Under the pieces are notes generated by a model that did no database searches, was not told the origin of the DNA, and saw only the letters and a list, made by a program, of their open reading frames with translations. The position numbers and the translations under genes are program-made. A DNA stretch of 46,385 nucleotides from an uncultured Collinsella sp. (GTDB taxonomy: Bacteria > Actinomycetota > Coriobacteriia > Coriobacteriales > Coriobacteriaceae), in assembly GCA_934655755.1 (NCBI GenBank), contig CAKUHA010000012.1, positions 1 through 46,385 of the forward strand. The letters are read 5' to 3'. Shown here one piece after another: positions 7,293 to 42,240 of the stretch. Every line of letters starts with the position of its first letter. The stretch's first letter is position 1.

Positions 7293-7510
7293 GTCTCAAT
7301 CTGTAACATCTGGAGGCGATTCAGGTCCGTAACTGTTACAGATCGAGACGGAAGGTTGGCTGCCGATGAATTATCTCAATCTGTAACATCTAGCTGCTAA
7401 AAACCGGTCCACCTGTTACAGATTGAGACAAAGGGTTGGACCGCTGCCGAAAGATCTTGATCTGTAACAACTAGAGGCACAAAGACCGTCTTCCTGTTAC
7501 AGATTGAGAC
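7293..7510. repeat. Palindromic repeat array A (3 units of 57 bp)
   Basis: Three units lie at 7293-7349, 7373-7429 and 7454-7510. Each is a 16-bp arm close to GTCTCAATCTGTAACA, a 25-bp centre, and the inverted arm TGTTACAGATTGAGAC. Unit starts are 80 and 81 bp apart. The centres read ...AAAACCGGTC..., opposite to most units of arrays C and D. Units 2 and 3 and their spacer are repeated at 8616-8752 on the other side of the nuclease-like gene. The whole array lies between the stop of the 6563 gene and the start of the next gene. Confidence 0.9.
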
Positions 7511-7536
7511 GTTTGTCGGCAGCGGCAACGGCGGTG

Positions 7537-8607
7537 ATGGTTCGTTTGTCAGATTTGGTGGTGATGGAAGTGTCCAATACCGTCTGCAAGTATAGGCATG
7601 CGACTCGCAACACGTTGGCGCGGAACAGGATGCTCGCCCGGTTGAAGGATGCGACCAAGCAGGGAGCGTTGCTTGTAACCCATAACAATGCCGAGCTCAT
7701 GTGGCTGCGGCGTCATGTGGGAACCGATGATATCGCGGAGCCCGAGCCGCACCTGTTCTGTTTTCAGCATGATTGGGATGCGCTGACGCCGTCGGAGCGA
7801 TCGCTGCGGACCATCAAGGGGCTTGCGGAGTTTCATCCCGATTGGGCGTTTTGGGGATATGACGCGGCTCTTCTGTGGGGCTTGGAAGTGCCGAATGATT
7901 TGCTCGGTCTGCGTTTTCTTGTTAAGACGGGCTGCACCGCGGCGCTGAGCGGTGGGTGCAGGTTGCTGCGCCCGCAGATGGCGGGTGCGCTTGAGCGTGT
8001 CGACGGTGTGCGGGTGACGCCGTTTTGGCGCACGGTGGAGGATTGCCTGCTACGGGCGCCGTTTTCGTATGGGCTGGCGATTGCCGATTCTGCCTTGCGG
8101 GCGAAGGGTTCGTCGCGCGACGAACTGTGCGGGCGGCTTCGCGCCGATTGCGATGGTCGGCGTGGATATCGCAGGGCGCAGGTGATCGCGTCGCATGCGG
8201 ACGGGCTGTCCGAAAACGGCGGCGAGTCTCGCTTCCGGGCGTTCTTTATTGCGTACGGCTTTCCAGCGCCACAGTTGCAAGTGGAATTTCGCGATCCGCT
8301 CGATCCGAGCCAGGTGTTTCGCGTCGACTACTTCTGGACGCTCGAGGACGGGACGTGCGTGATCGGCGAACTCGACGGAAAGGGGAAGTATACACTGCAG
8401 GCCGGCGAGGACCGGAAGTCCGTCGACCCGTTTGTGGCGGAGCGTCAGCGAGAATCCCATCTAACGATGCTCGGGCACAAGGTGCTTCGGTTTACGTTCG
8501 ATGAGCTCAAGGACCCGGGGAGGCTGGTCGAGAAGATGAGGCTGGCGGGTATTCCGCAGCAGGCTGAGTTGGCTGAGGAATGGAAGCGTCAGTGGTATGG
8601 GCACTGA
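7537..8607 (+). CDS. AbiEi-like / DUF559-type PD-(D/E)XK nuclease-like protein
   Basis: This is a protein of about 356 residues. The N-terminal half (RNTLARNRMLARL..., then YDAALLWGLEVPN) resembles the AbiEi-type antitoxin/transcription-factor fold seen in actinobacterial proteins. The C-terminal 120 residues look like a DUF559/Vsr-type endonuclease fold. With this start, E230 lies in GGESRFRAFF, D264 in FRVDYFW, and E278 and K282 in IGELDGKGKY, in the order expected for a PD-(D/E)XK active site. The start is uncertain: ATG 7537 and ATG 7564 both lack a clear ribosome site, and the frame is open to a TTG at 7504 inside a repeat unit. The gene is flanked on both sides by the palindromic repeats and shares no operon. 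Actual nuclease activity and target are unknown; a type IV abortive-infection role is only one possibility. Confidence 0.75.
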   Translation: MVRLSDLVVMEVSNTVCKYRHATRNTLARNRMLARLKDATKQGALLVTHNNAELMWLRRHVGTDDIAEPEPHLFCFQHDWDALTPSERSLRTIKGLAEFHPDWAFWGYDAALLWGLEVPNDLLGLRFLVKTGCTAALSGGCRLLRPQMAGALERVDGVRVTPFWRTVEDCLLRAPFSYGLAIADSALRAKGSSRDELCGRLRADCDGRRGYRRAQVIASHADGLSENGGESRFRAFFIAYGFPAPQLQVEFRDPLDPSQVFRVDYFWTLEDGTCVIGELDGKGKYTLQAGEDRKSVDPFVAERQRESHLTMLGHKVLRFTFDELKDPGRLVEKMRLAGIPQQAELAEEWKRQWYGH

Positions 8608-8615
8608 GAGGGTTT

Positions 8616-8752
8616 GTCTCGATCTGTAACACCTGGCGGCTGAAAACCGGTCTTCCTGTTACGAATCGAGACAAAGGCTGGGTCCCTGCCGAAAGATCTT
8701 GTTCTGTAACACCTGGCGGACAAAACCAGGTCCTCCTGTTACGGATCGAGGT
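8616..8752. repeat. Palindromic repeat array B (2 units of 57 bp)
   Basis: Units lie at 8616-8672 and 8696-8752, starting 9 bp after the stop of the nuclease-like gene. They match units 2 and 3 of array A, including the spacer with the identical 16-mer CTGCCGAAAGATCTTG (7444-7459 and 8686-8701). The nuclease-like gene is therefore enclosed by imperfect direct repeats of about 138 bp, offset by 1242-1243 bp. The second unit has a decayed right arm (ending GATCGAGGT). Confidence 0.88.
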
Positions 8753-8865
8753 GTTTCGTGGTCGCGGTCACGGCTGGGGCGGAGTTCGTATCGGTCGCGC
8801 CCATCCCTTCGCCCCCTCTTCTCTCCGTTAACCGATATGTCCACATCAACCCCGCCGCGCTGGGC

Positions 8866-8884
8866 GATAATGAACAAATGTTCA
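8866..8884 (+). promoter_or_regulatory. Candidate -10 box and operator palindrome before the amidohydrolase
   Basis: GATAAT at 8866-8871 could be a -10 box. It abuts a perfect palindrome TGAACA-AA-TGTTCA at 8871-8884, which lies 27 bp before the start codon and could bind a dimeric repressor. No good -35 was found at the usual distance. Confidence 0.45.
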
Positions 8885-8911
8885 TGTTAATCGAGGGGGG
8901 AGGAGCCCGAT

Positions 8912-10282
8912 ATGGCGACTGCCGATCGTCCCACGTTGTTTATCAATGCGACCGTTCTGGATGGTTCGGAGCATATGGAGCCGCAGCCCGATATGGCCGT
9001 GGTTGTTGAACGCGGCGTCATCACCTGGATTGGCCCGAGTGCCGTGGCGCAGGCGCCGGCGGGTGCCGAGGTCATCGACCTGGCAGGCGCGTACCTCATG
9101 CCGGGCCTCATCAACATGCACGTGCATCTGTGCGGCTCTGGCAAGCCGGTTTCGGCGGGCGATGCGGGCGCGCTCATGAAGAAGCTCGACAACCCCGTGG
9201 GCCGCGCCATCGTCCGCCACATCCTCAAGGGCAGCGCCCAGCAGCAGCTGGCAAGCGGCGTGACCACGGTGCGCGGCGCGGGCGACCCGCTGTTTGCCGA
9301 CATCGCCGTACGCGATGCCATCGACGCTGGCAAGTATCAGGGTCCGCGCCTGGTGGCGCCGGGCACGGGCGTCACGGTGCCGGGCGGCCATGGCGCAGGC
9401 CTGTTTGCGCAAGTTGCCAATACCCCCGTCGAGGCGGCCGAGCAGGTGCGCGACCTGTACGCGCGCGGCGCCGACGTCATTAAGCTGTTCGTGACGGGTG
9501 GCGTGTTCGACGCGACGGAGGTGGGCGAGCCCGGCGTGCTGAGGATGCCGGTCGATGTCGCCACGGCTGCGTGTAAGGTTGCGCATGAGGTAGGCCTGCC
9601 GGTCATGGCCCATGTCGAGAGCACCGAGGGCGTAAAGGCTGCACTCCAGGCCGGCGTCGATACGATTGAGCACGGCGCTCCGATGACCCCGGAGATTCTG
9701 GATCTGTATCACGGTGCCGCGGGTACCCAGCTTGAGGGCCGCGCGCCGAGCGTGACCTGCACAATCAGCCCAGCGCTGCCGTTTGTGCTACTCGATCCGG
9801 AGAAGACCCATTCGACCGACACACAAAAGAAGAACGGCGACATCGTATGCTCGGGCATTATCGAGAGTGCTCGCGCTGCCCTGGATGCCGGCGTCAAGGT
9901 GGGCCTGGGTACGGACTCGAGCTGCCCGTTCGTGACGCAGTACGACATGTGGCGCGAGGTGGCTTACTTTGCCAAGTACGTTGGCGTGAGCAATGCGTTT
10001 GCGCTACATACGGCCACGCAGGTCAATGCCGAGCTGCTGGGCCTGGGCGGTGAGACGGGCACGATCGAGTGCGGTAAGGCGGCTGACATTTTGGTGACGC
10101 GCGAGAACCCGCTCGATGACCTGCGCGCCCTGCGTGAACCAATGCACGTGATGTACCGCGGCAACCTGGCGTGCAAGCTGAAGGTGAAGCGCATCTCCGA
10201 GGTGGATGCCGAGCTTGACGCGATTATGGCCATGCCGGCAGAGGCGCTGGCCGAGGAACTTGCCCGCGATGGCGTAGCGTAG
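8912..10282 (+). CDS. Metal-dependent amidohydrolase family protein
   Basis: This 456-residue enzyme belongs to the amidohydrolase superfamily, in the group related to imidazolonepropionase and Xaa-Pro dipeptidase-like hydrolases. Metal ligands are visible: H70 and H72 in NMHVHLCG, K191 in DVIKLFVTGG (the likely carboxylated lysine), H234 in VMAHVES, H254 in TIEHG, and D335 in GLGTDSSCPF. The N- and C-terminal strands that form the accessory beta-sandwich are present, with the C-terminal GKAADILVTRENPLDDL typical of the family. No signal peptide is seen, so it is cytoplasmic. The ATG has a strong GGGGGGAGGAG site. It is a single-gene unit ending at a bidirectional terminator. The substrate cannot be named from sequence. 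Confidence 0.9.
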   Translation: MATADRPTLFINATVLDGSEHMEPQPDMAVVVERGVITWIGPSAVAQAPAGAEVIDLAGAYLMPGLINMHVHLCGSGKPVSAGDAGALMKKLDNPVGRAIVRHILKGSAQQQLASGVTTVRGAGDPLFADIAVRDAIDAGKYQGPRLVAPGTGVTVPGGHGAGLFAQVANTPVEAAEQVRDLYARGADVIKLFVTGGVFDATEVGEPGVLRMPVDVATAACKVAHEVGLPVMAHVESTEGVKAALQAGVDTIEHGAPMTPEILDLYHGAAGTQLEGRAPSVTCTISPALPFVLLDPEKTHSTDTQKKNGDIVCSGIIESARAALDAGVKVGLGTDSSCPFVTQYDMWREVAYFAKYVGVSNAFALHTATQVNAELLGLGGETGTIECGKAADILVTRENPLDDLRALREPMHVMYRGNLACKLKVKRISEVDAELDAIMAMPAEALAEELARDGVA

Positions 10283-10335
10283 GCGCTGGTGTGACGGGGC
10301 AACAGCTTTATCGAATGATGTCGTCCCATGCAAAA

Positions 10336-10372
10336 AGCCGAGGTCTCAACACGAGGCCTCGGCTTTTATTTT
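10336..10372. terminator. Bidirectional terminator between the amidohydrolase and the 10390 gene
   Basis: A stem AGCCGAGG...CCTCGGCT with extra inner pairs is flanked by A-rich bases on the left and TTTTATTTT on the right. It can end transcription of the plus-strand amidohydrolase and of the converging minus-strand gene. Confidence 0.88.
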
Positions 10373-10389
10373 GTCCTATGGTGTAGCGG

Positions 10390-10863
10390 CTAGGAGCGTG
10401 TCTCCATCTTGGCGTGGCACTTGGGGCAGGTGACGCGGATCTTGCCCTTGCCCTTGGGGACGGACAGCATCTGACCGCAGTTGGGGCACTTGAGGTACGC
10501 CGTGGTCTTGCGGCCCTTCCACATCTTCTTGGCCGTGCGCTTGGCACGCTCAAAGTCTTCCTTGCTCGTTCCAGCTGCGCGCGAGGTGCTGGCCGCTGCG
10601 GCTCCGCCGCCCAAGCTGGCGACGAACTTGCCTAGGCCGGGGACGTTTGCAGTCGCCGTGACAAAGGCATCGTTCTCCTTGCGGCGCGCGTCGATGTTTT
10701 TGGACAGGCCGCGCAGCACGCCGAGCACGATCACGGCGATGGCGATCCAGCTGAGCCACTGGATACGGGCCATCGATCCGATCATCGCGATGACGATTCC
10801 AGCAAAGCCCATCACGATGGTGAGTTCATCGGCGCCGTTGCGACCCTTCATAAAGTCATTCAT
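10390..10863 (-). CDS. Small membrane protein with C-terminal zinc ribbon
   Basis: This 157-residue protein has two adjacent N-terminal membrane helices (about residues 14-31 and 36-54). A basic linker follows, then a C-terminal zinc ribbon with cysteines in KCPNCGQM and TCPKCHAK. It resembles small membrane zinc-ribbon proteins annotated in actinobacteria without a known function. I chose the ATG at 10863, with AAAGG about 10 bases upstream, over a GTG two codons earlier. It follows csoR on the same strand, but a hairpin (10919-10965) separates them, so it may be transcribed apart from the copper genes. It may be functionally related to the zinc-ribbon membrane proteins of the downstream island, though there is no direct evidence. 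Confidence 0.8.
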   Translation of the reverse strand: MNDFMKGRNGADELTIVMGFAGIVIAMIGSMARIQWLSWIAIAVIVLGVLRGLSKNIDARRKENDAFVTATANVPGLGKFVASLGGGAAAASTSRAAGTSKEDFERAKRTAKKMWKGRKTTAYLKCPNCGQMLSVPKGKGKIRVTCPKCHAKMETRS

Positions 10864-10918
10864 GCACACTGCCTTTCATTCGATATGCTGCACGCCTTTA
10901 TACCCGATTTAGAGCAAG

Positions 10919-10965
10919 GGGGACAGGTTAATCTGCACCAATGTGGTGCAAACGTACCTGTCCCC
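10919..10965. other. Hairpin between csoR and the 10390 gene
   Basis: A stem GGGGACAGGT / ACCTGTCCCC (10919-10928 and 10956-10965) encloses a second stem GCACCA/TGGTGC around a 3-base loop. No long T-run follows on either strand, so it is not a classical terminator. It could be a terminator with Rho, a processing site or a dispersed palindrome. Confidence 0.65.
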
Positions 10966-10975
10966 AATGCCCCAA

Positions 10976-11248
10976 TTACTTGGAGAGCTTGTCGACGACG
11001 CGTTCGATCTCGGCGAGCTTGGCTGCCTTGAGCTCCTCGTCGCCCGATTCGATGGCCGAGGTGACGCAGCCCTCGATATGGGCCTTGAGCACGTCGGCAT
11101 TGATGCGCGCGATGAGCGCCTGCGTGGCCATGAGCTGCGTGGAAATATCGACGCAGTAGCGATCCTCCTCGACCATCCTCAAGATGCCGTCAATCTGGCC
11201 GCGCGCCGTCTTGAGCATGCGGGTCACCGATTTATGGTCTGCCATCAT
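10976..11248 (-). CDS. csoR: CsoR-family copper-sensing repressor
   Basis: This is a 90-residue DUF156/CsoR-family DNA-binding protein. It shows the Cu(I)-binding C-H-C set at C32 (DRYCVDI), H57 and C61 (KAHIEGC), with the same 25- and 4-residue spacing as mycobacterial CsoR. These proteins repress copper-efflux genes until Cu(I) binds. Two ATG codons are adjacent (11248 and 11245), with GAGG a suitable distance upstream of either. It lies downstream of copZ and copA on the same strand. The ATACCCCC half-site at 11279-11287, just before its start, and the full site at 14154 suggest that it regulates itself and copA. Confidence 0.93.
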   Translation of the reverse strand: MMADHKSVTRMLKTARGQIDGILRMVEEDRYCVDISTQLMATQALIARINADVLKAHIEGCVTSAIESGDEELKAAKLAEIERVVDKLSK

Positions 11249-11290
11249 GGCGGGTCCTCGTTTCTGATCGATCTTCCGGATACCCCCATC

Positions 11291-11357
11291 AGTTGCGGTG
11301 AAATAGTTCCTGATTGAAGGCTTGAAGCGTTTAAACCGGAACTATTTCACCGCAACT
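11291..11357. repeat. Perfect 20-bp inverted repeat between csoR and copZ
   Basis: AGTTGCGGTGAAATAGTTCC at 11291-11310 is exactly inverted at 11338-11357, with a 27-bp loop. There is no T-run on either side. It lies in the 132-bp gap between the copZ stop and the csoR start. A stem this long and perfect is unusual for a leader and looks like a dispersed palindrome or a strong RNA-processing or termination hairpin. Confidence 0.85.
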
Positions 11358-11380
11358 TCTGAGGAGGCAGGTGGCAGCTG

Positions 11381-11602
11381 CTACGCGGCGGTCACGGATA
11401 GGGCATGGAACTTTTCGCCGGCGGCCTCGACGGCGGCGGCGAGCTGCTCGGCGGTCACAGTGTCGGCGCACTCCACCTGGACGGTCTGGGTCTCGTGATC
11501 GGCATCGGCGTCGGTCACGCCGGCCACCTTGAGCAGCGCGGTCTCCACGGTAGCATCGCAATGGCCGCACATAAGGCCGGAAGTCTTAATGATGTAGTTC
11601 AT
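11381..11602 (-). CDS. copZ: Copper chaperone / heavy-metal-associated domain protein
   Basis: This 73-residue single HMA-domain protein carries the metal site MCGHC in place of the usual MTCxxC. It likely carries Cu(I) to CopA in the cytoplasm. The domain has the expected beta-alpha-beta-beta-alpha-beta order (YIIKTSGLMCGHCDATVETAL, then TQTVQVECAD). The open frame extends upstream, but the ATG at 11602 has AAGGAG 7 bases away and starts right at the domain, so it is the true start. It lies 151 bp downstream of copA and 132 bp upstream of csoR on the same strand. Confidence 0.92.
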   Translation of the reverse strand: MNYIIKTSGLMCGHCDATVETALLKVAGVTDADADHETQTVQVECADTVTAEQLAAAVEAAGEKFHALSVTAA

Positions 11603-11667
11603 GGTTGTCTCCTTATCGATTGAGATTATCTGACAGTTTAGTTGTAAACAGAGCCATCTTAAAGGCA

Positions 11668-11759
11668 CGCTGAGGTGCCCGAGATTGCCCCGAAAGAGGA
11701 GCGAAGCGTACTTGGGTACGCGAGCGACGGTTTGAGGGGCAAGGTCGGGTGCCTCAGCG
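11668..11759. other. Composite long hairpin spanning the copA stop codon
   Basis: The outer arms CGCTGAGGTGCCCGA (11668-11682) and TCGGGTGCCTCAGCG (11745-11759) pair with two mismatches. Inside are GCCCC/GGGGC and a tight GCGTAC-TTGG-GTACGC stem. The right arm covers the last codons and stop of copA. It could attenuate read-through from copA to copZ or protect the 3' end. Confidence 0.7.
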
Positions 11760-14093
11760 CGCCGTCTTGGGCTTAAAGGTTCGCAGGCGCAGGGCATTGC
11801 TTACGACGCAGACGCTCGACAGGCTCATGGCTGCGGCGCCAAACATCGGCGAGAGTTGCCAGCCGGTGAGGGGGAAGAACACGCCCGCGGCGAGCGGAAT
11901 GCCGATGCCGTTGTAGAACAGCGCCCAGAACAGGTCCTGTTTGATATTGCGGATCGTGGCGCGCGAAAGCTCGATGGCGCGGGCGACATCCATGAGGTCG
12001 CTGCGCATGAGCACCACATCTGCCCCTTCCTTAGCGATGTCGGCGCCGGTGCCGATTGCAAGGCCCACGTCGGCGCGCGCCAGGGCGGGGGAGTCGTTGA
12101 TGCCGTCGCCCACCATGGCGACCTTGCTGCCCGCGTCCTGCAGCTCACGCACGTGGCGCTCCTTGTCGGCGGGAAGAACGTCCGCGATGACCTGCTCGCT
12201 GTTCAGTCCTACGCGACGGGCGATGGCCTCGGCTGTCACGCGGTTATCGCCGGTGAGCATGCGCACGTCGACGCCGAGCGAGCGCAGCGCGGTAACGGCC
12301 TCGGCACTCGTCTCCTTGACCTCGTCAGCCACGGCGATGGTGCCGGCAAGTTCGCCGTTCTTGGCAAAGAACAGCGGTGTTTTGCCCTCGGTGGCAAATT
12401 GCTCGGCAAGACCGGCGGGCACCTCCGCGCCCAGCTCGTTCATCAGACGCACGTTGCCGGCCGCGATGGTATTCTGCCCCTCGCGTGCCGTAACGCCTCG
12501 CCCGGGCACGGCGGCAAAGTCTTCGACCATGCGCGCGACGATGCCGCGTGCCTCGCACTCGGCCATAATCGCCTCGGCCAGCGGGTGCTCGCTCTGGCGC
12601 TCCAGCGCTGCCGCGAGCTTCAGCAGCGCCTTCTCGCTCATGGCGGGCGTGCCGTCGGCGCGCTTGGCCACCACAATGTCGGTCACAGCCGGCTTGCCGC
12701 GGGTGACGGTGCCTGTTTTGTCGAGCACCACGGTACCCACGCTGCGCAGATTCTCCAGCGCCTCGGCGCTCTTAAACAGAATGCCCATCTCGGCGCCCTT
12801 GCCGGTGCCGACCATAATGGCGACGGGCGTGGCCAGGCCCAGCGCGCACGGGCAGCTGATCACCAGCACGGCGACGGCGGAGGTGAGCGCCTCGTTGACG
12901 CTTCCGGTCAGCATCATCCATGCCACAAAGGTTACGGCCGAGATGACAAACACCACGGGCACGAACACGCCGGCGACCTTGTCGGCCATGCGGGCGATGG
13001 GCGCCTTGGTGGCGTTGGCATCCTCGACGAGTTGGATAATCTTGGCGAGCGACGTGTCGGCGCCCACGCGCGTGGCACGGAAGGTAAACGAGCCCGTGCG
13101 GTTGACCGTGGCGGCGTTGACGGTGTCGCCGGCGGTCTTTTCCACGGGGATGGACTCGCCGGTCAGTGCGCTTTCGTCCACAGCCGAGGCACCCTCGAGC
13201 ACCACGCCGTCGACGGGGATGGACTCGCCGGGGCGCACGCGCAGCACCTGGCCAGGCAGGATGGCGTCGACGTCGACGGTGGTCTCGGTGCCGTCCTCCG
13301 CCACGACGGTCGCGGTCTTGGGCGCCAGGTCGATTAGCGCCTCAATGGCGCCGCCGGTCTTGGACTTGCTACGCGTCTCGAGGTATTTGCCCACGGTGAC
13401 GAGCGACAGGATCGTGCCGGCGCTCTCAAAATACAGGTTGTCCATGCCCGTCATCATAGCCTCGTGGACCTGTCCGACGGCCAGCTGGTCGGCCATGATA
13501 AACATGGCGTAGAGCGACCAGGCGATGGATGCGGTGGCGCCGACGGCGATGAGTGCATCCATGGTGGGCGCGCCGTGCACGAGCGATTTAAAGCCGTTGA
13601 TAAAGTACGCGTCGTTGACGTAGACGATGGGAATGAGCAGGACGAGCTCGGTGAGCGCGAGCGTCATGCTGTGGGTGTGGTCGGTGAAGATGCCGGGCAG
13701 CGGCCAGCCGAGCATGTGCCCCATGCCTATGTAGAACAACGGGACGAGGAAGATGATCGAGATGATGAGGCGGGTGCGCATGGCGGAGGCGGTGGCCTCC
13801 AGCTTTTTGGTGGGCGACTCCATATGGGCGGCGCCGGACCTGGTTTGCGTGCTGCCGCTTGGGGCGGCGCCGGTGTCCGCGTCGACGGGCGATGCCGAGT
13901 AGCCGGCGCGGTCGACGGCGGTGCAGATGTCGTCGGGGGTGACCTGTGCGGGGTCATAGTCGACCAGCATGGAGCCGGCGAGCAGATTGACCGCGACGCT
14001 TTGGACGCCGTCGAGTTTGCTGACAGCACGGTCCACGTGCGCCTGGCAGGCGGCGCACGTCATGCCACCCACATCGAACTTATCTTGAGCCAT
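11754..14093 (-). CDS. copA: Cu(I)-translocating P-type ATPase
   Basis: This 779-residue P1B-type ATPase exports Cu(I). One N-terminal HMA domain has GMTCAAC (C13, C16). Eight membrane helices are expected, with the CPC transport motif at 414-416. The phosphorylation site DKTGT is at 458-462, HPLAEAI follows in the nucleotide-binding domain, and the hinge motif [11 protein letters not shown] is near residue 660. Length and motifs fit CopA/CtpV. The ATG at 14093 has AGGAG upstream. Expression is likely controlled by CsoR through the operator at 14154-14166. Confidence 0.97.
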
Positions 14094-14245: not shown

Positions 14246-14625
14246 GTCTCAATCTGTAACATCTAGCAGGGAAAACGTCCCCTTACTGTTACAGATCGAG
14301 ACAAACAACCTGGTGACGACCCAAACGTCTCAATCTGTAACATCTAGCCCCGATTTTGCCGAGTTACTGTTACAGATTTAGATAACCCGTCTGGTGGTTA
14401 CCTCAACATCTCGATCTGTAACAGTTAGACCGGTTTTTGACCCCTTACTGTTAACAGATTGAGATGTTGTCTCGTGGGGCTGAGATTTGTCTCGTTCTGT
14501 AACATCTAACCCCGTATTAGCCGAGTTGCTGTTACAGATTTAGACATTACGTCGAGCCACAGCTCAACGTCTCGATCTGTAACAGTTAGGCTGGTATTTG
14601 GGTTCTAGATGTTACAGATTGAGAT
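14246..14625. repeat. Palindromic repeat array C (5 units of 57 bp)
   Basis: Units lie at 14246-14302, 14327-14383, 14408-14465, 14489-14545 and 14569-14625, with starts 80-82 bp apart. Arms follow GTCTCRATCTGTAACA and its inverse. The third unit has one extra A (TGTTAACAG). Centres are 25 bp, partly conserved (for example GACCGGTTTTTGAC), and mostly T-rich in this orientation. Spacers of 22-24 bp are also weakly alike. The array fills most of the gap between the copA promoter and the 3' end of the first island kinase gene. No reading frame is present. Confidence 0.92.
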
Positions 14626-21398: not shown

Positions 21399-21408
21399 GT
21401 TGCGCAAC
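21399..21408. promoter_or_regulatory. GTTGCGCAAC palindrome, site 1
   Basis: A perfect 10-bp palindrome lies 86 bp before the start of the 21495 gene. It is nested in AAAGTTG-cgcaa-CAACTTT (21396-21414), a second perfect 7-bp inverted repeat. The same core recurs upstream of other island genes. Confidence 0.7.
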
Positions 21409-22529: not shown

Positions 22530-22539
22530 GTTGCGCAAC
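22530..22539. promoter_or_regulatory. GTTGCGCAAC palindrome, site 2
   Basis: It lies 59 bp before the 22599 start and is nested in a perfect AATGTTG-cgcaa-CAACATT (22527-22545). Both layers of symmetry match site 1, even though the outer three bases differ (AAT/ATT versus AAA/TTT), so the outer symmetry is kept while the bases change. Confidence 0.72.
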
Positions 22540-35640: not shown

Positions 35641-35667
35641 GGCGCCCAGCGCCGGAAAGGACCCATC

Positions 35668-36591
35668 ATGTTTTGTGGTAACTGCGGATACAACAATCCC
35701 ACTACCAGCAAGTTTTGCCTAAAGTGCGGCGCGGAGCTTGCTAAGTACATGCCCGGTGGCGTTTCTGCCGCCGCGGCGGCGACGCTTCGCACGCCTGCCC
35801 AGCAGCAGCGTCCCGTGCAGGCTGCGGGTGCGCCTGCGGCTCCGGTTGCACAGCCCGGAATGGGTGCCCAGCGTCCCGGTGCGGCTCCGATGCCGCAGAC
35901 GGGCCGTCCCGGCATGGCGCCTATGCCGCAGCCCCAGATGCCCCAGGCTGGCCGCCCCGCTGCCGGCGCCTATCCTCAGCAGCCGGCGCAGCGTCCTGCG
36001 CGTACGTCGCACAACCGTCCGTCAAACATCCCCGATGCCGGACCCGCCGTGCGTCCCGGTACGCACCCAGCCGCGGCTCCCTCTGCCGCTCCTGCCGGCG
36101 CCAACGGCAACGTGGTGATTCCCCGCGGCCCCGTGGCTGGCGCTAACCAGCCGGCTGGCGCCTACAACCAGCCCAACGCGGTCTACAACCGCCCCAGCAC
36201 GGGCGTGACGGTGCTCGACGAGCTTATGGCGTCCTCGGATCACCCGTCGTCCTCTGAGCTGCCGCGCATCGCCTCCGATGTGCCCCGTTCTGCCTATGGC
36301 CCGCGCATGACGCTTGTCCGCGAGCGCGGTACCCGCTACGAGATCACCGAATTCCCCGCCACGGTGGGCAAGGGCTCGGCGGCAAACGTCCGTATCGAGG
36401 GCAACACCGCCATCTCGCGCGTGCATCTGCTGGTGCGCTACACGGGCCAGTGCTTTGCCGTCGAGGACAAGAATTCCACCAACGGTACGTGCATCAACGG
36501 CAACCGACTTGAGCCCGGCGAGCTCGTTAAACTCAAGAACGGCGACAAGGTCAAGATGGGCAACGAGGTCTTTACGGTCGAGATTCGTTAA
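35668..36591 (+). CDS. Zinc-ribbon and FHA-domain protein
   Basis: This 307-residue soluble protein joins an N-terminal zinc ribbon (MFCGNCGYN...KFCLKCG) to a C-terminal FHA domain (about 213-307). The FHA domain shows ATVGKGSAAN, SRVH and NSTNGT, all intact. The linker is Pro/Ala/Gln-rich, with a GVTVLDEL segment near residue 180 that resembles the TTVLD motifs elsewhere in the island. It directly links the zinc-ribbon family to phospho-Thr reading. The ribosome site is GGAAAGGA. A terminator follows at 36627. Confidence 0.92.
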   Translation: MFCGNCGYNNPTTSKFCLKCGAELAKYMPGGVSAAAAATLRTPAQQQRPVQAAGAPAAPVAQPGMGAQRPGAAPMPQTGRPGMAPMPQPQMPQAGRPAAGAYPQQPAQRPARTSHNRPSNIPDAGPAVRPGTHPAAAPSAAPAGANGNVVIPRGPVAGANQPAGAYNQPNAVYNRPSTGVTVLDELMASSDHPSSSELPRIASDVPRSAYGPRMTLVRERGTRYEITEFPATVGKGSAANVRIEGNTAISRVHLLVRYTGQCFAVEDKNSTNGTCINGNRLEPGELVKLKNGDKVKMGNEVFTVEIR

Positions 36592-36626
36592 CGAATACCG
36601 GTCTTTACAAGGCAAAACATTGCGCA

Positions 36627-36664
36627 AAAGCGGCGGCGGGTAAAAAACTTGCCGCCGCTTTTAT
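36627..36664 (+). terminator. Rho-independent terminator after the 35668 gene
   Basis: A stem AAAGCGGCGGC/GCCGCCGCTTT is followed by a T-rich tract (TTTTATT). It abuts operator site 5. Confidence 0.9.
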
Positions 36665-36677
36665 TGTTGCGCAACAA
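36664..36677. promoter_or_regulatory. TTGTTGCGCAACAA palindrome, site 5
   Basis: This 14-bp perfect palindrome ends 94 bp before the 36772 start codon. The CAACTTT on its right side matches site 1. It begins at the last base of the preceding terminator. Confidence 0.72.
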
Positions 36678-36771
36678 CTTTTGAATTTTTGGGTGGATGA
36701 TTCTAATCGTCAATGGTGTTCGAGCGGACGCGGGATCGAGCCCAGCCGCTCCCTTAAGAAAGGGGAATGAT

Positions 36772-37689
36772 ATGTTCTGTCCTCACTGTGGTTCCCAGCA
36801 GCCCGATGGCGCCGTCTTTTGCGGCAACTGCGGCCAGTCTATGGTCGGCGCTCCTTCCGCGCCTCAAGCGGCTCCCGTCCGCCAGGCCCCGGCTCCGCAG
36901 CAGTTTGCTCCGCAGCCCGCGCCGGCGCAGCAGCCGTTCGCTCAGCCCGCGCCTGCCGCACATCACGGCTTTGGCGACGCCGGCTCCAGCTTTCAGAGCA
37001 CGCTGACGGCGGCTACGGGCTTTGGCAAGCGCTCCCTCGCCATGCTGGGCGGCGCCGTGGCCTCCTTCGTGTGCATGTTCCAGCCGTGGATCGCTATGCC
37101 TTGGATCGACAAGGCGCTCGGCTATGCCGCTAACCAGGCTGGCTCCGATAACTACGGACTCAACCAGACGGCGATCACCTCGGCCAAGGCGCTTGTTAAC
37201 AGCGCGTTCGACATGCCGCATGTGTTTAGCCTCTCCGGTGCGCTGCGCGGCCTTTCTACGGGTGTTAACAATCTGGCGATGCAGATTACCTCGTATGACA
37301 CCTCGGCGGCCGCTCAGGCTCAACAGGCCGCCAGCTCTCTCGGTCTGGTCGCCAATGTCCTCACCATTCTCTTTGTGCTGTGGGTTGCCTGTGTGGTGGC
37401 TATGATCGCCGGCGTTGTGATTAAGTTCCTCAAGAAGCAGGATGTTGTCCTGTTTGCCAGCCTCGGCGCCTCTGCAGTTCTTTCGCTTGTATGCATCATC
37501 GGCGCGCTGGTGGCAAACGGCCAGATTGACGGTGCGCTGACCCAGATGCTCGCGTCGAGCGGCGGTTCGAGCGCTTTTGCCGTCATTACGACCATCAAGC
37601 CGTTCCTGGCCCCGGCATATGGTGCCGTCCTTACGCTGGTCTTCTCGATCGCCGGCTTGGTGAGCGCCTTCGTCCTCAAGGAGGACTAA
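36772..37689 (+). CDS. Zinc-ribbon multi-pass membrane protein
   Basis: This 305-residue paralogue of the 21495 protein has an N-terminal zinc ribbon (MFCPHCGSQ...VFCGNCG), a Pro/Gln-rich linker and four membrane helices. The first is at about 88-108 and the others lie in the last 120 residues. An exported loop of about 85 residues lies between the first and second helix. The ATG has AAAGGGG upstream and is preferred over upstream in-frame starts that lack a ribosome site. Operator site 5 precedes it, and a terminator follows. No enzymatic motif is seen. Confidence 0.87.
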   Translation: MFCPHCGSQQPDGAVFCGNCGQSMVGAPSAPQAAPVRQAPAPQQFAPQPAPAQQPFAQPAPAAHHGFGDAGSSFQSTLTAATGFGKRSLAMLGGAVASFVCMFQPWIAMPWIDKALGYAANQAGSDNYGLNQTAITSAKALVNSAFDMPHVFSLSGALRGLSTGVNNLAMQITSYDTSAAAQAQQAASSLGLVANVLTILFVLWVACVVAMIAGVVIKFLKKQDVVLFASLGASAVLSLVCIIGALVANGQIDGALTQMLASSGGSSAFAVITTIKPFLAPAYGAVLTLVFSIAGLVSAFVLKED

Positions 37690-37748
37690 TTTCGTCGATA
37701 CGCCTGCCGGCGGGCAAGACTCGGCCCCGCTTACAGGAGACTATCGTA

Positions 37749-37777
37749 GGCCCTGCGGATCTTCCGCGGGGCCTTTT
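37749..37777 (+). terminator. Rho-independent terminator after the 36772 gene
   Basis: A stem GGCCCTGCGGA/TCCGCGGGGCC with a 3-base loop is followed by TTTT. Confidence 0.88.
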
Positions 37778-37794
37778 GCTATGAGGTGACAATT

Positions 37795-37804
37795 GTTGCG
37801 CAAC
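37795..37804. promoter_or_regulatory. GTTGCGCAAC palindrome, site 6
   Basis: This 10-bp palindrome lies 59 bp before the 37864 start codon and is preceded by AATT. The right flank CGTTGTT departs from sites 1 and 2, so only the core symmetry is kept. Confidence 0.68.
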
Positions 37805-37863
37805 GTTGTTGGCGGAGCGCGGGTTACACTCTGAGTAACGGAATTGTTGTAAGGGAGAACCTT

Positions 37864-39078
37864 ATGTTTTGCACTAAATGCGGTTCGTACGTGCCCGACG
37901 GCCAGCACTTCTGCACCAGCTGCGGCGCCCCTATGGAGGAGTTTGGGCCCGTTGATGCCGCTCCGGCGCAGCCGACGTACCAGCAGCCTGGTCAGACGCA
38001 GCAGGGCTATGGACAGCCTGCTTCTGTAACGGGCGCCAGCGACTTGCCGCCCTATATGCCGCCGGTCGACGTACCGGGTGCCTATGACATGGGTGCGAAC
38101 GCGCCTGGTCTGCAGCGCCCTAAAAAGAACGGTAAGAAGGCTGCGCTGATCACCGTCGGCGTGCTTGCGGCTATCCTTGCGGGCGGCGGTGCCGGCTATT
38201 ACTTTGGTGTGTATCGCCCGCAGCAGGCCGAGCTCGAGCGCATCGAAAAGAAGAAGGAAGAAGAGGCCGTCAAGCACTCCAGGCACCCGGTGCGCATCAC
38301 GGCGACCGGCATGCAGTGGGATACCGATACCGGCGCCACCAAGCTGCCGGTGCACGTGACGGGAACCGACGTTGACGGCAAGGACGTCGACACGGTCTTT
38401 TACGTCGACAGCGACGGCAACGGTATCAAGCTCATGCAGGGCAGCTACAGCCTTACGGTTGCCGCTTCGCCCCTGGGCGCCGACGGCGAGATTTGGGATA
38501 TCCCCAACGTTTCGGTGAGCATTAAGCTGGGCGACGCGCTCAAAAAGGACGAGAAGCTCGACCTGCGCGAGAATGCCAAGTTTGAGCTCGGCGATCCGGT
38601 GAACGCCGTGGATGTCGAGCCCGGCGAGATCACCATGGCGCAGAATTACGCGCGTCAGGGCGGATGCGACGACAAGGACGAGGCCGATCGCCTGGCCGGT
38701 CTGGCCTCCTCGGCGCGCAACGGCGCGGTCGCGAGCTATAACGCGGCCGTCTCGGAGGCGAGCCGCAAGAGCCGCACCTACGACGGCGATGTGTTTACGT
38801 TCGAGGTCCCCGAGGACTGGGGGAGCGACTGGGACGTCAAGACCTCGCAGGGCTCGTACAGCGGCGTCAAGAACGGCCTGTGGGTTGATTACAAGATTGT
38901 CCACGACGGCTATACGGTGGGAACGCTCATGATCTCCAATCACTACAACTCGGGATTCAACACGATTGGCAAGACGGGCAACGTGGGTAAATCGACTAAC
39001 TTGTGGCTCGGGTCGTACGACTCGCTTTCGGGCGACTCCGACTGGGAGTACATCATCGATTCGATCTACATTAAGTAG
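37864..39078 (+). CDS. Zinc-ribbon single-pass membrane protein
   Basis: This 404-residue protein has an N-terminal zinc ribbon (MFCTKCGSY...HFCTSCG), a Pro/Gln/Tyr-rich linker and a membrane helix at about 93-115. A short basic/acidic helix and two likely exported domains follow. The first (about 140-230) has the strands of an Ig-like fold. The second (about 295-404, beginning YDGDVFTFEVPEDW) is a small beta domain. Neither is recognised with certainty. The ATG has AAGGGAG upstream, with operator site 6 beyond it. A terminator at 39102 ends the unit. Confidence 0.85.
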   Translation: MFCTKCGSYVPDGQHFCTSCGAPMEEFGPVDAAPAQPTYQQPGQTQQGYGQPASVTGASDLPPYMPPVDVPGAYDMGANAPGLQRPKKNGKKAALITVGVLAAILAGGGAGYYFGVYRPQQAELERIEKKKEEEAVKHSRHPVRITATGMQWDTDTGATKLPVHVTGTDVDGKDVDTVFYVDSDGNGIKLMQGSYSLTVAASPLGADGEIWDIPNVSVSIKLGDALKKDEKLDLRENAKFELGDPVNAVDVEPGEITMAQNYARQGGCDDKDEADRLAGLASSARNGAVASYNAAVSEASRKSRTYDGDVFTFEVPEDWGSDWDVKTSQGSYSGVKNGLWVDYKIVHDGYTVGTLMISNHYNSGFNTIGKTGNVGKSTNLWLGSYDSLSGDSDWEYIIDSIYIK

Positions 39079-39101
39079 CCGACGTCTTTTGGCTTGGATG
39101 C

Positions 39102-39137
39102 GGGCTGTGCGTAGGGTTTGCGCACGGCCCGTTTTTT
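39102..39137 (+). terminator. Rho-independent terminator after the 37864 gene
   Basis: A stem GGGCTGTGCG/CGCACGGCCC with a 9-base loop is followed by GTTTTTT. Confidence 0.9.
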
Positions 39138-39176
39138 GTACTGGCGATGCGTGCTGTGAGGGAGTGCCCTTTACAG

Positions 39177-39213
39177 AAAAGCGCCCGTTTCTCTGGTGGA
39201 AACGGGCGCTTTT
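39177..39213. terminator. Bidirectional terminator between converging genes
   Basis: A stem GCGCCCGTTTC/GAAACGGGCGC with a 7-base loop has AAAA on its left and TTTT on its right. It can end the minus-strand 39242 gene and back up the plus-strand terminator at 39102. Confidence 0.88.
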
Positions 39214-39241
39214 GCTTGCGATGAGGCTGTGTCGCTCGGCG

Positions 39242-41728
39242 TTACTCGTCGACGTCGGTGAACTCGGTGGGCGGGACGGAGTCCGTGGAGTCGCCGTAGT
39301 CGTCGGAATCGTCGTAGCTGTCGTCGTAGTCGGAGTCATCGGAGTCGTAGTCCGAATCGTCGGAGTCGTCGTAGCTGTACGACTTGCTGGAGCTGCTCGA
39401 CTTGCTGGACTTGCTCGACTTTTTGCTGGAGCTCGACTTGCTGTCGGACGAGTCACTCGACTTGCTGCCACTCGGATTGGCGTCGGAATCGGTGCCGCTG
39501 ATCTTGGTAGTGAGGACCATGAGCGTCTGCTCGACGGTATCGACCGTGTTGTTGAGGTTGAGCTTGGAGGTGTCAATTGCGTTCTCCGGAGCGGTGGCGT
39601 CCTGGTCTTCCAGGTTGTCGCTGTAGCCCTTGATGAGGAAGGCGCTCTGGTCGTCGAAGTTGTCGCCGTGAAGCTCGCCCTCGGCAGCCTTAAATTCGGT
39701 GCCGTCGTACGTGAAGTACTTAGGCTCGGCATCGTCACCAACGAGGACTGCGGTGTCGTCTGCCACGAGCTGAGGCAGATAGACGTGGTTGCCTGTGTCG
39801 CCGATCATGGTCTTAAAGGTCACAAAGACGTAGCCGCCGTTGGAGGCCTCCGGCGAGCCGCTGTAGAGGTTGACGACCTTCTTGCCGTTGTAGCCCCACA
39901 CGTCCAAGACGTAATCGCCGTTCGAAAGGCGCGTCTTCTTGTTGAAGGACTTCGCCTTGGTCTTGGAGTGGACGGTCACGAGCTCCTCGAGTCCGTCGCC
40001 GTTAAAGTCGACGAGCTGGGCAAACTGGACGCCGCCGATCTGGTAGTCGCTCGAGCCAGTCGAGACGAGCTCGGGCTCACCGTACTTCTTGATCAGGCTG
40101 TTGAGCTTGCTCTTATAGGCCGTGCAGGCCGCCTTGTACGTCGCGTCGTCAATCGTGGCGGGCGCGGAGGTGTCGACGGTGTCCTTGGACGTGTCGGTCT
40201 TTTTGTCCGTCTTCTTGTCGGACTTGCTGGGCTTGGAGCTGCTCGTGCTATCGCTCGACGTGCTCGAATCGTCCTCGGACGTGGAGTCGTCCGTGCTCGT
40301 GGAGTCTTCGCTGGCGTCATCCTTGGAGGTCGTGCTCGAGGAATCGTTGCTGTTGTCCGTGCTGCTCGACGCGTCGTCATCCTTCTTGGGGGTGTTGACG
40401 GTCACGCTCTCGGCAGGCTTCTCGGCGCTGGCGTCGTCCTTCTTGACCACGGTGGTGTTGAAGTTTTGGACCGTGTTGCCCTTGGTGTCCTCGATCTTGC
40501 AGCTGTAGTCGCCGGGCTTGACCTTGCCAAAGTCGCCGATGGTAAAGCCGTCGTCGCCCTTGACCTTGATCTTGTAGCTCTTGCCGCCGTTCTTGGGCGT
40601 GAGAGTCGCGGTGTAGCTGTGGATCACGCGGTCCTTCTTTTTGGGCAGGACCTTGGTGTCGACCGTGCACACGACAGCGTCCTGGCTGCCCGAGGTGATC
40701 TCGACGGCGTTGGCGTTGGGCGTGAGCAGCAGGATGGCTGCCACGGCGGCGCCGGCGGCGACCAGGCCAAGGCCCGCGAAGACCGGCCAGCGGCGCTTCT
40801 TTTGCTGCGGCTGCTGGGGCATGGGTATCTGCGGCTGGGGCTGCGGCTGCGGGATGGGAGCGGCCTGCATGGTGGTGTCGGTCATCTGCTGTTGGGGCAG
40901 GTCGACGACGGTGGCACCGGCCGTGGGGCGTGCCACGCCAAGCGACTCCATGGCCTCGGCGGTTGCCTGGGCATCCTCGTCGAACTCGGCGATGGTGGTG
41001 GGGTCGTCGTTGACGTTGACGAGCGTGGTGGGGTCGTCGGCGACGGCGGCAGGCGCGGCTGCATCGTCGCCGGGGAAGGCGACGGCGACGGCTGCGTTGT
41101 CGTCGGTCTCGAAGATCTCCTCGGCCTCGGCGGCGTCGACGGGCGCGGCGTCGTCGACGATGGGCTCGGCGGCCTGCTCGGGGTCGCCTGCGGGCTGTGG
41201 CTCGGCGGTTTGCTCGGCCGAGGGCTCAACGGCATCCAGGGTGACGACGGTCTCGCCCGGGTCGGTCTGGCCTGCGGGCGGCTCGGCGGTGTCTGCCGTG
41301 GTCTCCGGTTCCGGCTCGACGGCGTCGAGTGTGACGACGGTCTCACCCGGGTCGGCGGGTGCCGGGATAGATGCTTCGGCTTCGGCATTGGCCGAGGGCT
41401 CGACGGCATCTAGCGTAACGACCGTCTCGCCGGGGTCTGCATCGACGGCGTCCAGTGTGACGACCGTCTCGCCGGGGTCAACGGCGGGTGCCGCGGCAGT
41501 CGCGGGCTCGGCCGGAGTTGCGTTTTCGGACGTCGGCTCAACAGCGTCGAGCGTAACGACGGTTTCGCCCGGGTCAACGACGGGTGTCTCGACGGGCGTG
41601 GGCTCAGCAGCTTGGGCCTCGGCGGGCGCCGGAGCCTGGGTTGCCGCCTTGGGCGCTACGGGCGCTCCGCAGCCGGTGCAAAAGCGAGCGTCGTCAGGCA
41701 ACTTCGTTCCGCATTGCGTGCAAAACAT
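39242..41728 (-). CDS. Zinc-ribbon membrane protein with Thr-motif repeats and Ser/Asp-rich ectodomain
   Basis: This 828-residue protein starts with a zinc ribbon (MFCTQCGTK...RFCTGCG). An acidic Ala/Pro region follows, with five near-exact copies of DPGETVVTLDAVEP (DNA 41231-41575), then DDPTTLVNVNDDPTTIAEF. One membrane helix lies at about 313-333. The exported part has a small domain, a Ser/Asp/Lys/Thr-rich stalk, a domain with DFNGDGLEELVTV (FG-GAP or calcium-loop-like), and a C-terminal Ser/Lys then Ser/Asp/Tyr-rich tail. The DDPTTL/DDPTTI and ETVVTL sites resemble the acidic-TT motif of known FHA-pathway substrates such as GarA. It faces the other way from the rest of the right half of the island. 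The ATG at 41728 has AAGGGAG upstream. Confidence 0.88.
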   Translation of the reverse strand: MFCTQCGTKLPDDARFCTGCGAPVAPKAATQAPAPAEAQAAEPTPVETPVVDPGETVVTLDAVEPTSENATPAEPATAAAPAVDPGETVVTLDAVDADPGETVVTLDAVEPSANAEAEASIPAPADPGETVVTLDAVEPEPETTADTAEPPAGQTDPGETVVTLDAVEPSAEQTAEPQPAGDPEQAAEPIVDDAAPVDAAEAEEIFETDDNAAVAVAFPGDDAAAPAAVADDPTTLVNVNDDPTTIAEFDEDAQATAEAMESLGVARPTAGATVVDLPQQQMTDTTMQAAPIPQPQPQPQIPMPQQPQQKKRRWPVFAGLGLVAAGAAVAAILLLTPNANAVEITSGSQDAVVCTVDTKVLPKKKDRVIHSYTATLTPKNGGKSYKIKVKGDDGFTIGDFGKVKPGDYSCKIEDTKGNTVQNFNTTVVKKDDASAEKPAESVTVNTPKKDDDASSSTDNSNDSSSTTSKDDASEDSTSTDDSTSEDDSSTSSDSTSSSKPSKSDKKTDKKTDTSKDTVDTSAPATIDDATYKAACTAYKSKLNSLIKKYGEPELVSTGSSDYQIGGVQFAQLVDFNGDGLEELVTVHSKTKAKSFNKKTRLSNGDYVLDVWGYNGKKVVNLYSGSPEASNGGYVFVTFKTMIGDTGNHVYLPQLVADDTAVLVGDDAEPKYFTYDGTEFKAAEGELHGDNFDDQSAFLIKGYSDNLEDQDATAPENAIDTSKLNLNNTVDTVEQTLMVLTTKISGTDSDANPSGSKSSDSSDSKSSSSKKSSKSSKSSSSSKSYSYDDSDDSDYDSDDSDYDDSYDDSDDYGDSTDSVPPTEFTDVDE

Positions 41729-41797
41729 AAGGTGAGCTCCCTTCTTTTGGGTGTTTCTTTGGTTCGAATCTATGGTACCTGCGGTATAGGGCAAAGT

Positions 41798-41809
41798 TGT
41801 TGCGCAACA
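41798..41809. promoter_or_regulatory. TGTTGCGCAACA palindrome, site 7
   Basis: This 12-bp perfect palindrome lies 69 bp upstream of the minus-strand 39242-41728 gene. Read on that strand it is followed by ACTTTGCCC and TATACC, a possible -10 box, so it may overlap the -35 region. It is the only copy serving a minus-strand gene at this end of the island. Confidence 0.7.
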
Positions 41810-41862
41810 GTGCGAAAAACCCTGCAACGGCGCCAATAGTGATGTTCATGTGTACAGATAAC

Positions 41863-42240
41863 GTCTCGATCTGTAACACCTGGACGGGATTTCAACCTCT
41901 ACCTGTTACAGAACGAGACAGCTCTTCACCCAACACATCAAACATCTCAATCTGTAACAGTAAGGACCCGTTTTGCTCAGTAGATGTTACAGAACGAGAT
42001 ATTGTCCGGACGATGTCTCAAATGTCTAAATCTGTAACATCTGGACGGGAAATTAGCCGGCAACTGTTACAGATTGAGATATTTGGTCTGACTCATTCCG
42101 TTTATCTCAATCTGTAACATCTGCAGACCATTTGGCCGAGTAACTGTTACAGATTGAGATGTTGTCCGGCGGAGGATTCTTCTATCTAAATCTGTAACAT
42201 CTGGGACCGGTTTTGCCCAGTAGCTGTTACAGATTGAGAC
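41863..42240. repeat. Palindromic repeat array D (5 units of 57 bp)
   Basis: Units lie at 41863-41919, 41944-42000, 42024-42080, 42104-42160 and 42184-42240, with starts 80-81 bp apart. Arms follow RTCTMAATCTGTAACA, with the first unit having GTCTCGATC and the fifth ATCTAAATC. Centres are 25 bp with T-rich cores (GGACCGGTTTTGCCC), the same orientation as most of array C. The array lies between the divergent island gene (39242-41728) and the helicase gene. No reading frame is seen. Confidence 0.92.

Follow-up and report, generated by a model that had tools for sequence, protein, structure and literature searches.

In REPINs, which are doublets of repetitive extragenic palindromes (REPs), each half is a REP hairpin tied to a REP-associated tyrosine transposase (RAYT). 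The mycobacterial interspersed repetitive unit (MIRU) or variable-number tandem repeat (VNTR) loci of mycobacteria are dispersed intergenic arrays whose copy number varies by whole units between strains, and centromeres of the sopC type consist of tandem 43-bp direct repeats at one plasmid site, with inverted half-sites and one bound protein. REPs themselves are described as hairpins with compensated changes (PMC2817692, PMC3733652) and the large REP families as carrying a GTAG or CGTC tag (PMC3733652). In the bacterial interspersed mosaic elements (BIMEs) REPs are regularly spaced in alternating orientation, and binding of DNA gyrase by BIME-2 and of IHF by BIME-1 has been described (PMC2817692). 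The subject of the present study is a family of palindromic units in phased arrays, found in a 46,385-nt stretch of DNA from an uncultured Collinsella sp. (assembly GCA_934655755.1, contig CAKUHA010000012.1, positions 1-46,385; the whole stretch is referred to below as the window). Fifteen units make up four arrays in the window (3 + 2 + 5 + 5). The favoured reading, to which a probability of about 0.43 is attached, is that these are phased binding arrays for one DNA-bending protein at the borders of transcription units, the binding protein, the wrapping and the border function being what we infer from the sequences.

A fixed metric of units and arrays

A search of the window with the arm TCTCAATCTGTAACA, allowing up to 3 mismatches, found 31 matches against 0.40 expected from 100 shuffles (shuffle maximum 3), and 30 of the 31 fall in units, the lone exception lying at 9697. 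A first-pass annotation of this DNA had proposed 15 palindromic units as 3+2, 5 and 5 copies, forming a strictly phased family whose arms recur at about 40 bp in alternating orientation; all of this was borne out, and every unit was recovered in its place. Some of the proposed dimensions had to be narrowed. The 25-nt centre, and the unit length of 57 bp, hold in 14 of the 15 units, the unit at 14408-14465 having a centre of 26 nt and a length of 58 bp. Spacers given as 22-25 bp measure 23 or 24 bp, and starts said to fall every 80-82 bp are indeed in fixed phase, at distances of 80 or 81 bp. The counts in the "3+2" group were right, but these are two separate arrays about 1.1 kb apart with an open reading frame (ORF; 7504 or 7630 to 8607) in between. 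The product of this ORF, taken as 7504-8607, has at best a very weak match to DUF559 (E 0.05).

The same metric was seen beyond the window. Among 387 units in 121 sources (the window and 120 stretches) the centre is 25 nt in 380, and over all fetched loci it is 25 nt in 513 of 527 units. This larger set was cleared of overlapping false pairs; a few of its units are counted more than once where loci overlap, and two come from chance pairings in the viral loci L122 and L124. The pitch between neighbouring units is 80 bp in 179 and 81 bp in 126 of 319 pairs (together 305) and 79 bp in eight, while the remaining six pitches are 74, 78, 82 or 235 bp. When orthologous arrays of equal size were compared, the pitch was the same in 278 of 317 comparisons, off by 1 bp in 29 and off by more in 10. 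The pitch is therefore fixed although centres and spacers vary in sequence, the spacers being 23-24 bp in 305 of 319 cases. A genome survey might have returned random spacing; in the loci surveyed spacing is fixed, and the proposal of a phased family is left standing.

Arms without a partner are rare (15 in the 121 sources), and most of these are array ends at masked or cut sequence, arms with decayed partners or inner false matches. Of the 91 arm matches listed at up to 1 mismatch in the complete genome G007, 84 were found by eye to lie in units; the other seven comprise two half-units, two arms flanking an insertion sequence, two isolated arms and one with a decayed partner. Between 17 and 20 arrays were read in each of three genomes. 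The longest array observed has eight units (L052:4113-4733), and the relatives that were compared hold one to four there.

Sequence constraint and pairing

The arm consensus is the 16-bp GTCTCRATCTGTAACA, next to which stand two free bases and then TRG. The centre is GC-rich with a middle A/T triplet, and A/T triplets also lie just outside both arms (338 distinct units). Of 445 distinct units, 179 have TTT in the middle and 158 have AAA, and outside the arms the share of A/T is 0.98 at the centre, low at 3-6 bp from it (0.15-0.26), 0.99 at 10 bp (the T/A of TRG), 0.74, 0.87 and 0.96 at 29, 30 and 31 bp, and low again at 38-40 bp (0.24-0.30). An A/T alternation of about 10 bp such as this would be typical of bent or wrapped DNA, and the conservation as a whole looks like that of protein half-sites together with A/T triplets placed centrally and at a distance of 30 bp. 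The 10-bp pattern is confined to the non-arm positions, because the arms carry other A/T positions. The two bases inside each arm favour the combination TC/G., which 172 of 473 units have where 120 are expected; TC/TC is depleted (23, expected 47), as is G./G. (42, expected 77), and the unit therefore has polarity. The five bases after the arm are TCTAG in 109, GTTAG in 53 and GGTAG in 49 of 676, and the outer end is A/G and then TCTC.

Divergence within the unit was compared in 18 orthologous pairs, taken from equal-count arrays only and with flanks below 90% identity. Identity is 0.937 for arms, 0.822 for centres, 0.79 for spacers and 0.835 for other intergenic DNA. From close to distant orthologues the centres have 0.10, 0.49 and 0.88 gaps per 100 columns, and other intergenic DNA has 0.52 (flanks at least 95%), 0.85 (90-95%) and 2.26 (below 90%); the arms were cut as fixed 16-mers, and their gap counts are uninformative.

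Matched changes in the end pairs of the arms had been taken in the first-pass annotation as support for selection on pairing. This did not hold up, the arms varying independently when many units are compared. In 338 distinct units the combinations at arm pair 5/51 are GC 94, GT 88, AT 81 and AC 73, with a mutual information of 0.01 bits. In 473 distinct units the choice of A or G at position 5 of one arm does not depend on that in the other (p 0.27), and at the outermost arm pair the shift is towards mismatch, not match (p 0.027). In 69 units 91.7% of pairs are formed against 91.3% (sd 0.3) after shuffling, a value reached by 96 of 500 shuffles, and the covariation score was matched by 48 of 500. 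Pairs changed on both sides number 7 against 4.7 in shuffles, which 19 of 500 shuffles reached, this being one of five measures. Convincing covariation of the arms is thus absent, which counts against a function as hairpins and for separate protein half-sites.

It is also very improbable on other grounds that the units work as hairpins in RNA or single-stranded DNA, be it as 3' mRNA structures, small RNAs or folded recombination sites. Each unit does fold strongly as a single strand (mean -24.9 kcal/mol with RNA parameters, 60 sampled units), and one pair-count measure is slightly high as given above, but a fold energy of this kind follows from any inverted arms, the arrays lie mostly past terminators, and Rfam at the gathering score gave no matches for the window and three loci. 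One arm by itself does not fold (mean energy about 0 in 100 sampled arms). An RNA element was accordingly rejected, given the absence of convincing covariation, a position that is mostly post-terminator and the Rfam result. In 201 orthologous pairs no centre reaches 0.6 identity to the reverse complement, which speaks against the hairpin reading and by which an inversion switch was ruled out.

Position relative to genes

Genes were called by a codon-based caller of our own, and 205 of 206 arrays overlap no called gene, the other overlapping by 17 bp; two arrays in viral loci were left out of this count. Convergent genes bound 64 of 188 gaps with arrays against 37 of 331 array-less gaps of at least 150 bp (p 8e-10). 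Orthologous copies enter these counts, which are not independent; taken one genome at a time, convergent gaps make up 7/18, 4/16 and 7/20. The median distance of arrays is 68 bp to stop codons and 177 bp to starts. Terminators were assigned by a simple rule of our own at 78 de-duplicated gene 3' ends facing arrays. A terminator stands between stop codon and array at 48 of these ends and not at 20, and 10 have no room for one; the resulting 48 of 68 compares with 196 of 543 control ends (p 7e-8). The array itself shows a terminator on that strand in 3 of the 78 cases and none in 75. Because a terminator usually precedes the array, the arrays are mostly outside transcripts, and gene avoidance, convergent gaps and post-terminator placement together suggest that they probably act at the DNA level.

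Fixed inverted half-sites are also what would be expected of operators for one transcription factor governing a regulon, and a unit does stand upstream of a clpB-like gene in G038, G019 and main-group loci. A regulon of this type is nevertheless most unlikely, since a promoter is unexpected in the 64 convergent gaps, the arrays are set well back from start codons and the neighbouring genes are unrelated. No recurrent neighbour gene stood out among array groups, which were under-joined, with group counts as upper bounds.

Distribution among genomes

A pattern scan of a species-genome collection matched at least 120 stretches, and among the matches listed 115 are from Collinsella, one is from an uncultured Coriobacteriaceae and four are from other groups; two of these four (L034, L071) have a different gap length. 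In a survey of 43 Collinsella genomes, made with a sequence-only model of the unit and strict filters, 26 genomes matched, 22 with at least 27 units and four with one or two. No unit was found in the other 17, and again none when three of the 17 were re-searched at E <=10. Each of the 22 carriers gave between 54 and 124 matches counted over both strands and so has a minimum of 27 to 62 units, these being lower bounds with up to 124 candidates scored; genomes are called carriers or main group by their unit counts and genome labels. The host guessed in the first-pass annotation, a member of the Coriobacteriia, agrees with the actual one, Collinsella. A survey of Coriobacteriia genomes, which had been foreseen at the outset, placed the units in Collinsella alone: 15 of 197 genomes in a class-wide sample matched, all 15 of them among the 22 Collinsella carriers. 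A control with the reversed pattern returned no matches in the genomes on which it was run, the 197-genome class sample included. The family is therefore large but narrow: in the genomes searched it is limited to a part of one genus.

Outside the main group nearly intact single units were found in G038 and G019 (L126, L127), upstream of a gene which we take to be clpB-like, and an intact single unit in G037 (L125) beside a tRNA-Met gene; tRNA-Met likewise adjoins an array in G007 (L135). A decayed two-unit remnant in G029 (L128) has a shortened centre and has lost the right arm. Four matches came from IMG/VR, of which L121 is a two-unit array close to one end of a contig, possibly a provirus carrying host flank, and the other three have other gap lengths. 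An origin in phages was considered on these matches and rejected. In the three genomes that were mapped arrays are commoner in the origin-proximal half (for G025, among the matches listed), though many are the same loci, and a terminus- or origin-specific layout was not adopted. A scan of 780 kb (about a tenth) of three unit-less Collinsella genomes found no 60-100-bp phased triplets with other arms. In G017 (L184-L202), a Collinsella genome lacking units, 380 kb contain nine pairs of an inverted family with GGGGACGTACC; the family looks REPIN-like and is not phased at 80 bp.

Copy number, exchange and loss of arrays

Orthologous arrays with alike flanks have lengths of 57, 138, 218, 299 and 379 bp, from which it is clear that arrays gain and lose entire units. 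Two alleles with a single unit, L085 and L060, resemble, by eye, chimeras of the outer units of a three-unit allele. Where the flanks are 92% alike or more, 134 of 201 orthologous centres have an identity of 0.9 or above and 14 are under 0.6, as if these had been replaced while the flanks stayed. Centres alike at 18 or more of 25 positions across different arrays of one genome amount to 14, 29 and 28 pairs in three genomes against 2.1, 3.1 and 3.5 expected, and spacers show the same cross-array likeness at a lower rate; the column shuffles behind these expectations ignore correlation between columns, and the excess for both centres and spacers is overstated. Within the same array 1 of 37, 1 of 36 and 1 of 38 pairs are alike at this threshold. 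The simplest account of the likeness between centres would be in-register exchange between arrays.

Gene content also changes at the arrays. At five loci (68 comparison rows, many of them the same locus) a segment bounded by two arrays in one strain corresponds to a single array in another (Table 1), and the remaining comparison rows show an array on one side only or an array expansion. Passive, functionless VNTR-like DNA, the arms of which are kept alike by recombination, would account for the whole-unit differences, for the chimera-like alleles and for array-bounded gene gain and loss, the joint being chimeric-looking at one locus and compatible with a chimera at another; spacers, moreover, gap as other intergenic DNA does. 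Units of the same array are, however, no more alike than units of other arrays, the arms outlast centres and spacers in divergent orthologues, and spacers of unrelated sequence hold their 23-24 bp, and a purely passive origin is for this reason judged unlikely.

Sites lacking an array were found as well. At L146 an array of G007 is lacking in G006 and G025. In G007 a 36-40-bp palindrome, AAACCACCACAAAGG..., stands on either side of the array plus about 55 bp, whereas a single copy of it is left in the allele that has no array. The comparison of L147/L104 with L177/L160 is a similar case, and at L136 and L153 a half-unit is left where others hold a full array. The array-less sites are read as losses, and no clean gain of an array was seen among those examined. 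Several arrays (L146:2660-2705, L171, L027, L113 and others) are flanked by a dispersed palindrome of a second kind, AAACCACCACAAAGGTGCCTGTCCCC..TTGTGGTGGTTT, which may mediate array deletion; its 23-base core has 31 exact copies in the fetched loci and none within 3 mismatches in the window.

Mobility and candidate partner proteins

The units could also be a non-autonomous mobile repeat, akin to REPINs, BIMEs or miniature inverted-repeat transposable elements (MITEs), with arms recognised by a transposase and copies tolerated between transcription units. They are dispersed, intergenic and limited to part of one genus, the number of alike centres in different arrays of one genome exceeds that in shuffles, and array-less sites exist. 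A Y1 transposase (PF01797, Y1_Tnp) is present in 37 of the 43 genomes, comprising all 26 with units and 11 of the 17 without (p 0.002, uncorrected for kinship), and a dependence of the units on a RAYT may exist. Mobility is nonetheless rated less probable than phased protein binding. There is no target-site duplication, the left and right flanking triplets being uncorrelated and the array-less sites examined showing the 36-40-bp palindrome and no short duplication. Many arrays occupy orthologous places in several genomes, and those array-less sites that were examined read as losses. In the complete genome G007 there is no longer element ending in these arms, nor is any Y1_Tnp gene found beside the arrays in the manner of a RAYT: the two that this genome has, at 760 and 881 kb, are a long way off the closest arrays, which stand at 468 and 1051 kb. 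Nor, as noted, does a single arm fold.

An autonomous transposon with unit ends was ruled out in G007, where no such element occurs; the one pair of arms standing far apart in that genome belongs to a unit which an unrelated insertion sequence has interrupted. The insertion sequence L135:2160-3570, which has GGCTTATAGGACAAAATGTGTGTCC as its inverted ends and seems to have duplicated 8 bp, lies inside the centre of one unit, and its transposase frame looks split. An extra ParB was considered as a partner of the arrays and ruled out, ParB_N occurring in 42 of the 43 genomes irrespective of whether they carry units.

Interpretation

Ordered protein binding, which the first-pass annotation had suggested, was kept as the best reading and is favoured over its rivals. 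The unit would then be a double-stranded DNA site composed of two inverted 16-bp half-sites, to which one sequence-specific, DNA-bending protein would bind. The 80-81-bp repeat (about eight turns at 10 bp per turn) would align neighbouring complexes, and these in turn would wrap or stiffen the DNA. Its role would be architectural, that of a topological or nucleoid-organising border element between transcription units, BIME-like in outline; a border role appears most likely because the arrays are mostly beyond terminators and back from start codons.

A number of observations weigh against phased protein binding and must be set beside it. With 10.5 bp per turn a pitch of 80.4 bp comes to 7.66 turns, and complexes could be aligned face to face only if the helical repeat were shorter. 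In-register recombination could account for the inheritance of a fixed pitch, and spacers, with 0.53, 1.91 and 1.89 gaps per 100 columns from close to distant orthologues, do not gap less than other intergenic DNA; because they gap like it, the gap test gives no sign of selection on spacer length. The arms hold further A/T positions at 13, 15-17, 19, 21-22, 25 and 27 bp from the centre, and the 10-bp alternation is that of the non-arm positions. Intergenic, post-terminator placement is equally expected of a tolerated selfish repeat, and the excess in convergent gaps was counted over loci that are not independent. The genes adjoining the arrays are diverse (74 clusters among 380 proteins) and name no regulator, and the two families checked for co-occurrence, Y1_Tnp and ParB_N, did not identify a binding protein. 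The single units outside the main group, finally, are intact (G037) or nearly so (G038, G019) and have not decayed.

A bolder form of the protein-binding reading would have the arrays serve as assembly platforms on which a Collinsella protein, so far undescribed, wraps DNA in lengths of about 40 or 80 bp into a nucleosome-like phased filament, whose place at transcription-unit borders would be set by the sequence, a bacterial insulator system arisen in one group of gut bacteria; its probability is put low. Collinsella aerofaciens is a common human gut bacterium, and a sizeable, apparently undescribed element family is present in the C. aerofaciens group. The strict metric predicts a single DNA-bending protein that could be caught with one labelled unit. 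If the arrays do mark the borders of transcription units, the function of BIME-like arrays becomes testable outside the enterobacteria. For annotators, the arrays point to sites of gene-content change between strains.

Features of the window and of the gain/loss loci

The units and arrays of the window are collected in Table 1 with the five loci of gene gain or loss. The window also has five copies of the palindrome GTTGCGCAAC (21399-21408, 22530-22539, 36666-36675, 37795-37804 and 41799-41808; 0.11 expected), and each copy precedes the called start of a gene of zinc-ribbon or kinase-like type. These genes sit in an FHA/Ser-Thr kinase/zinc-ribbon island at about 14.7-41.8 kb of the window. Just three copies of GTTGCGCAAC occur in 1.45 Mb of fetched loci, and it looks like a local operator for one regulator. 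An inverted repeat with 40-bp arms (83% complementary) lies at 11284-11364, and its word TGCGGTGAAATAGTTCC was found again in 5 of 222 loci.

Table 1. Arrays and units of the window (positions in the window) and loci at which a segment between two arrays is gained or lost
Feature	Position or loci compared	Strand	Remarks
Array 1, three units	7293..7510	.	pitch 80, 81 bp
Unit 1	7293..7349	+	
Unit 2	7373..7429	+	
Unit 3	7454..7510	+	
Array 2, two units	8616..8752	.	pitch 80 bp
Unit 4	8616..8672	+	
Unit 5	8696..8752	+	each arm 3 mismatches off search word TCTCAATCTGTAACA
Array 3, five units	14246..14625	.	pitch 81, 81, 81, 80 bp
Unit 6	14246..14302	+	
Unit 7	14327..14383	+	
Unit 8	14408..14465	+	58 bp, extra base between arms
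Unit 9	14489..14545	+	
Unit 10	14569..14625	+	
Array 4, five units	41863..42240	.	pitch 81, 80, 80, 80 bp; divergent genes either side
Unit 11	41863..41919	+	
Unit 12	41944..42000	+	
Unit 13	42024..42080	+	
Unit 14	42104..42160	+	
Unit 15	42184..42240	+	
Gain/loss locus	L091 (single two-unit array) vs window 7293-8752 and others		too diverged to judge joint
Gain/loss locus	L001 vs L108, L009, L035		L001/L108 single array compatible with chimera
Gain/loss locus	L055, L058, L115 vs L066		L055/L066 single array chimeric-looking
Gain/loss locus	L073 vs L010		two outer arrays near copies of one another
Gain/loss locus	L079 vs L084		too diverged to judge joint

Comparison with known systems

The claim that no named element has this layout has stood, there being none in Rfam for the window and three loci and no description of the family among the papers listed by searches of open full text, from which subscription journals are mostly missing. 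The family is real, conserved and apparently undescribed. CRISPR (clustered regularly interspaced short palindromic repeats) arrays differ in that the Collinsella repeats are inverted and both gaps are near-fixed; no cas family was found among 30 window ORFs scanned with Pfam. Integron attC sites occur one per gene cassette, alongside an integron integrase; the Collinsella units stand in tandem without genes between them, and at five loci genes are gained or lost between arrays. The 16-bp terminal inverted repeats recall MITEs, from which the units differ in having no target-site duplication and, in G007, no autonomous element with the same ends. Like sopC the arrays are tandem modules, each with inverted half-sites, but there are many arrays in a Collinsella genome. 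With MIRU/VNTR loci they share copy-number polymorphism by whole units; units of the same Collinsella array are, however, not near-identical, and each is an inverted pair in which the inner and outer metrics are fixed.

The closest resemblance is to REPINs and BIMEs. A REPIN, like a unit, has two inverted motifs around a short variable centre and occurs in many copies, but the Collinsella half-unit is no hairpin. The likeness to BIMEs extends to dispersed, intergenic, evenly spaced motifs in alternating orientation and to a variable number of modules. The differences from BIMEs and REPs are that the Collinsella arm alone does not fold, that changes between arms are uncompensated, that the arms have no fixed GTAG or CGTC end tag, and that no Y1 transposase gene adjoins the arrays of the complete genome G007. 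The arrays are not filed as BIMEs because the tests of self-palindrome and tag fail, as does RAYT adjacency in G007; BIMEs are nonetheless the nearest to them in layout and in possible work. To our knowledge the metric of the Collinsella arrays, with a 25-nt centre, a pitch of 80-81 bp and A/T at the centre, 10 and 30 bp, is stricter than that in REP or BIME families.

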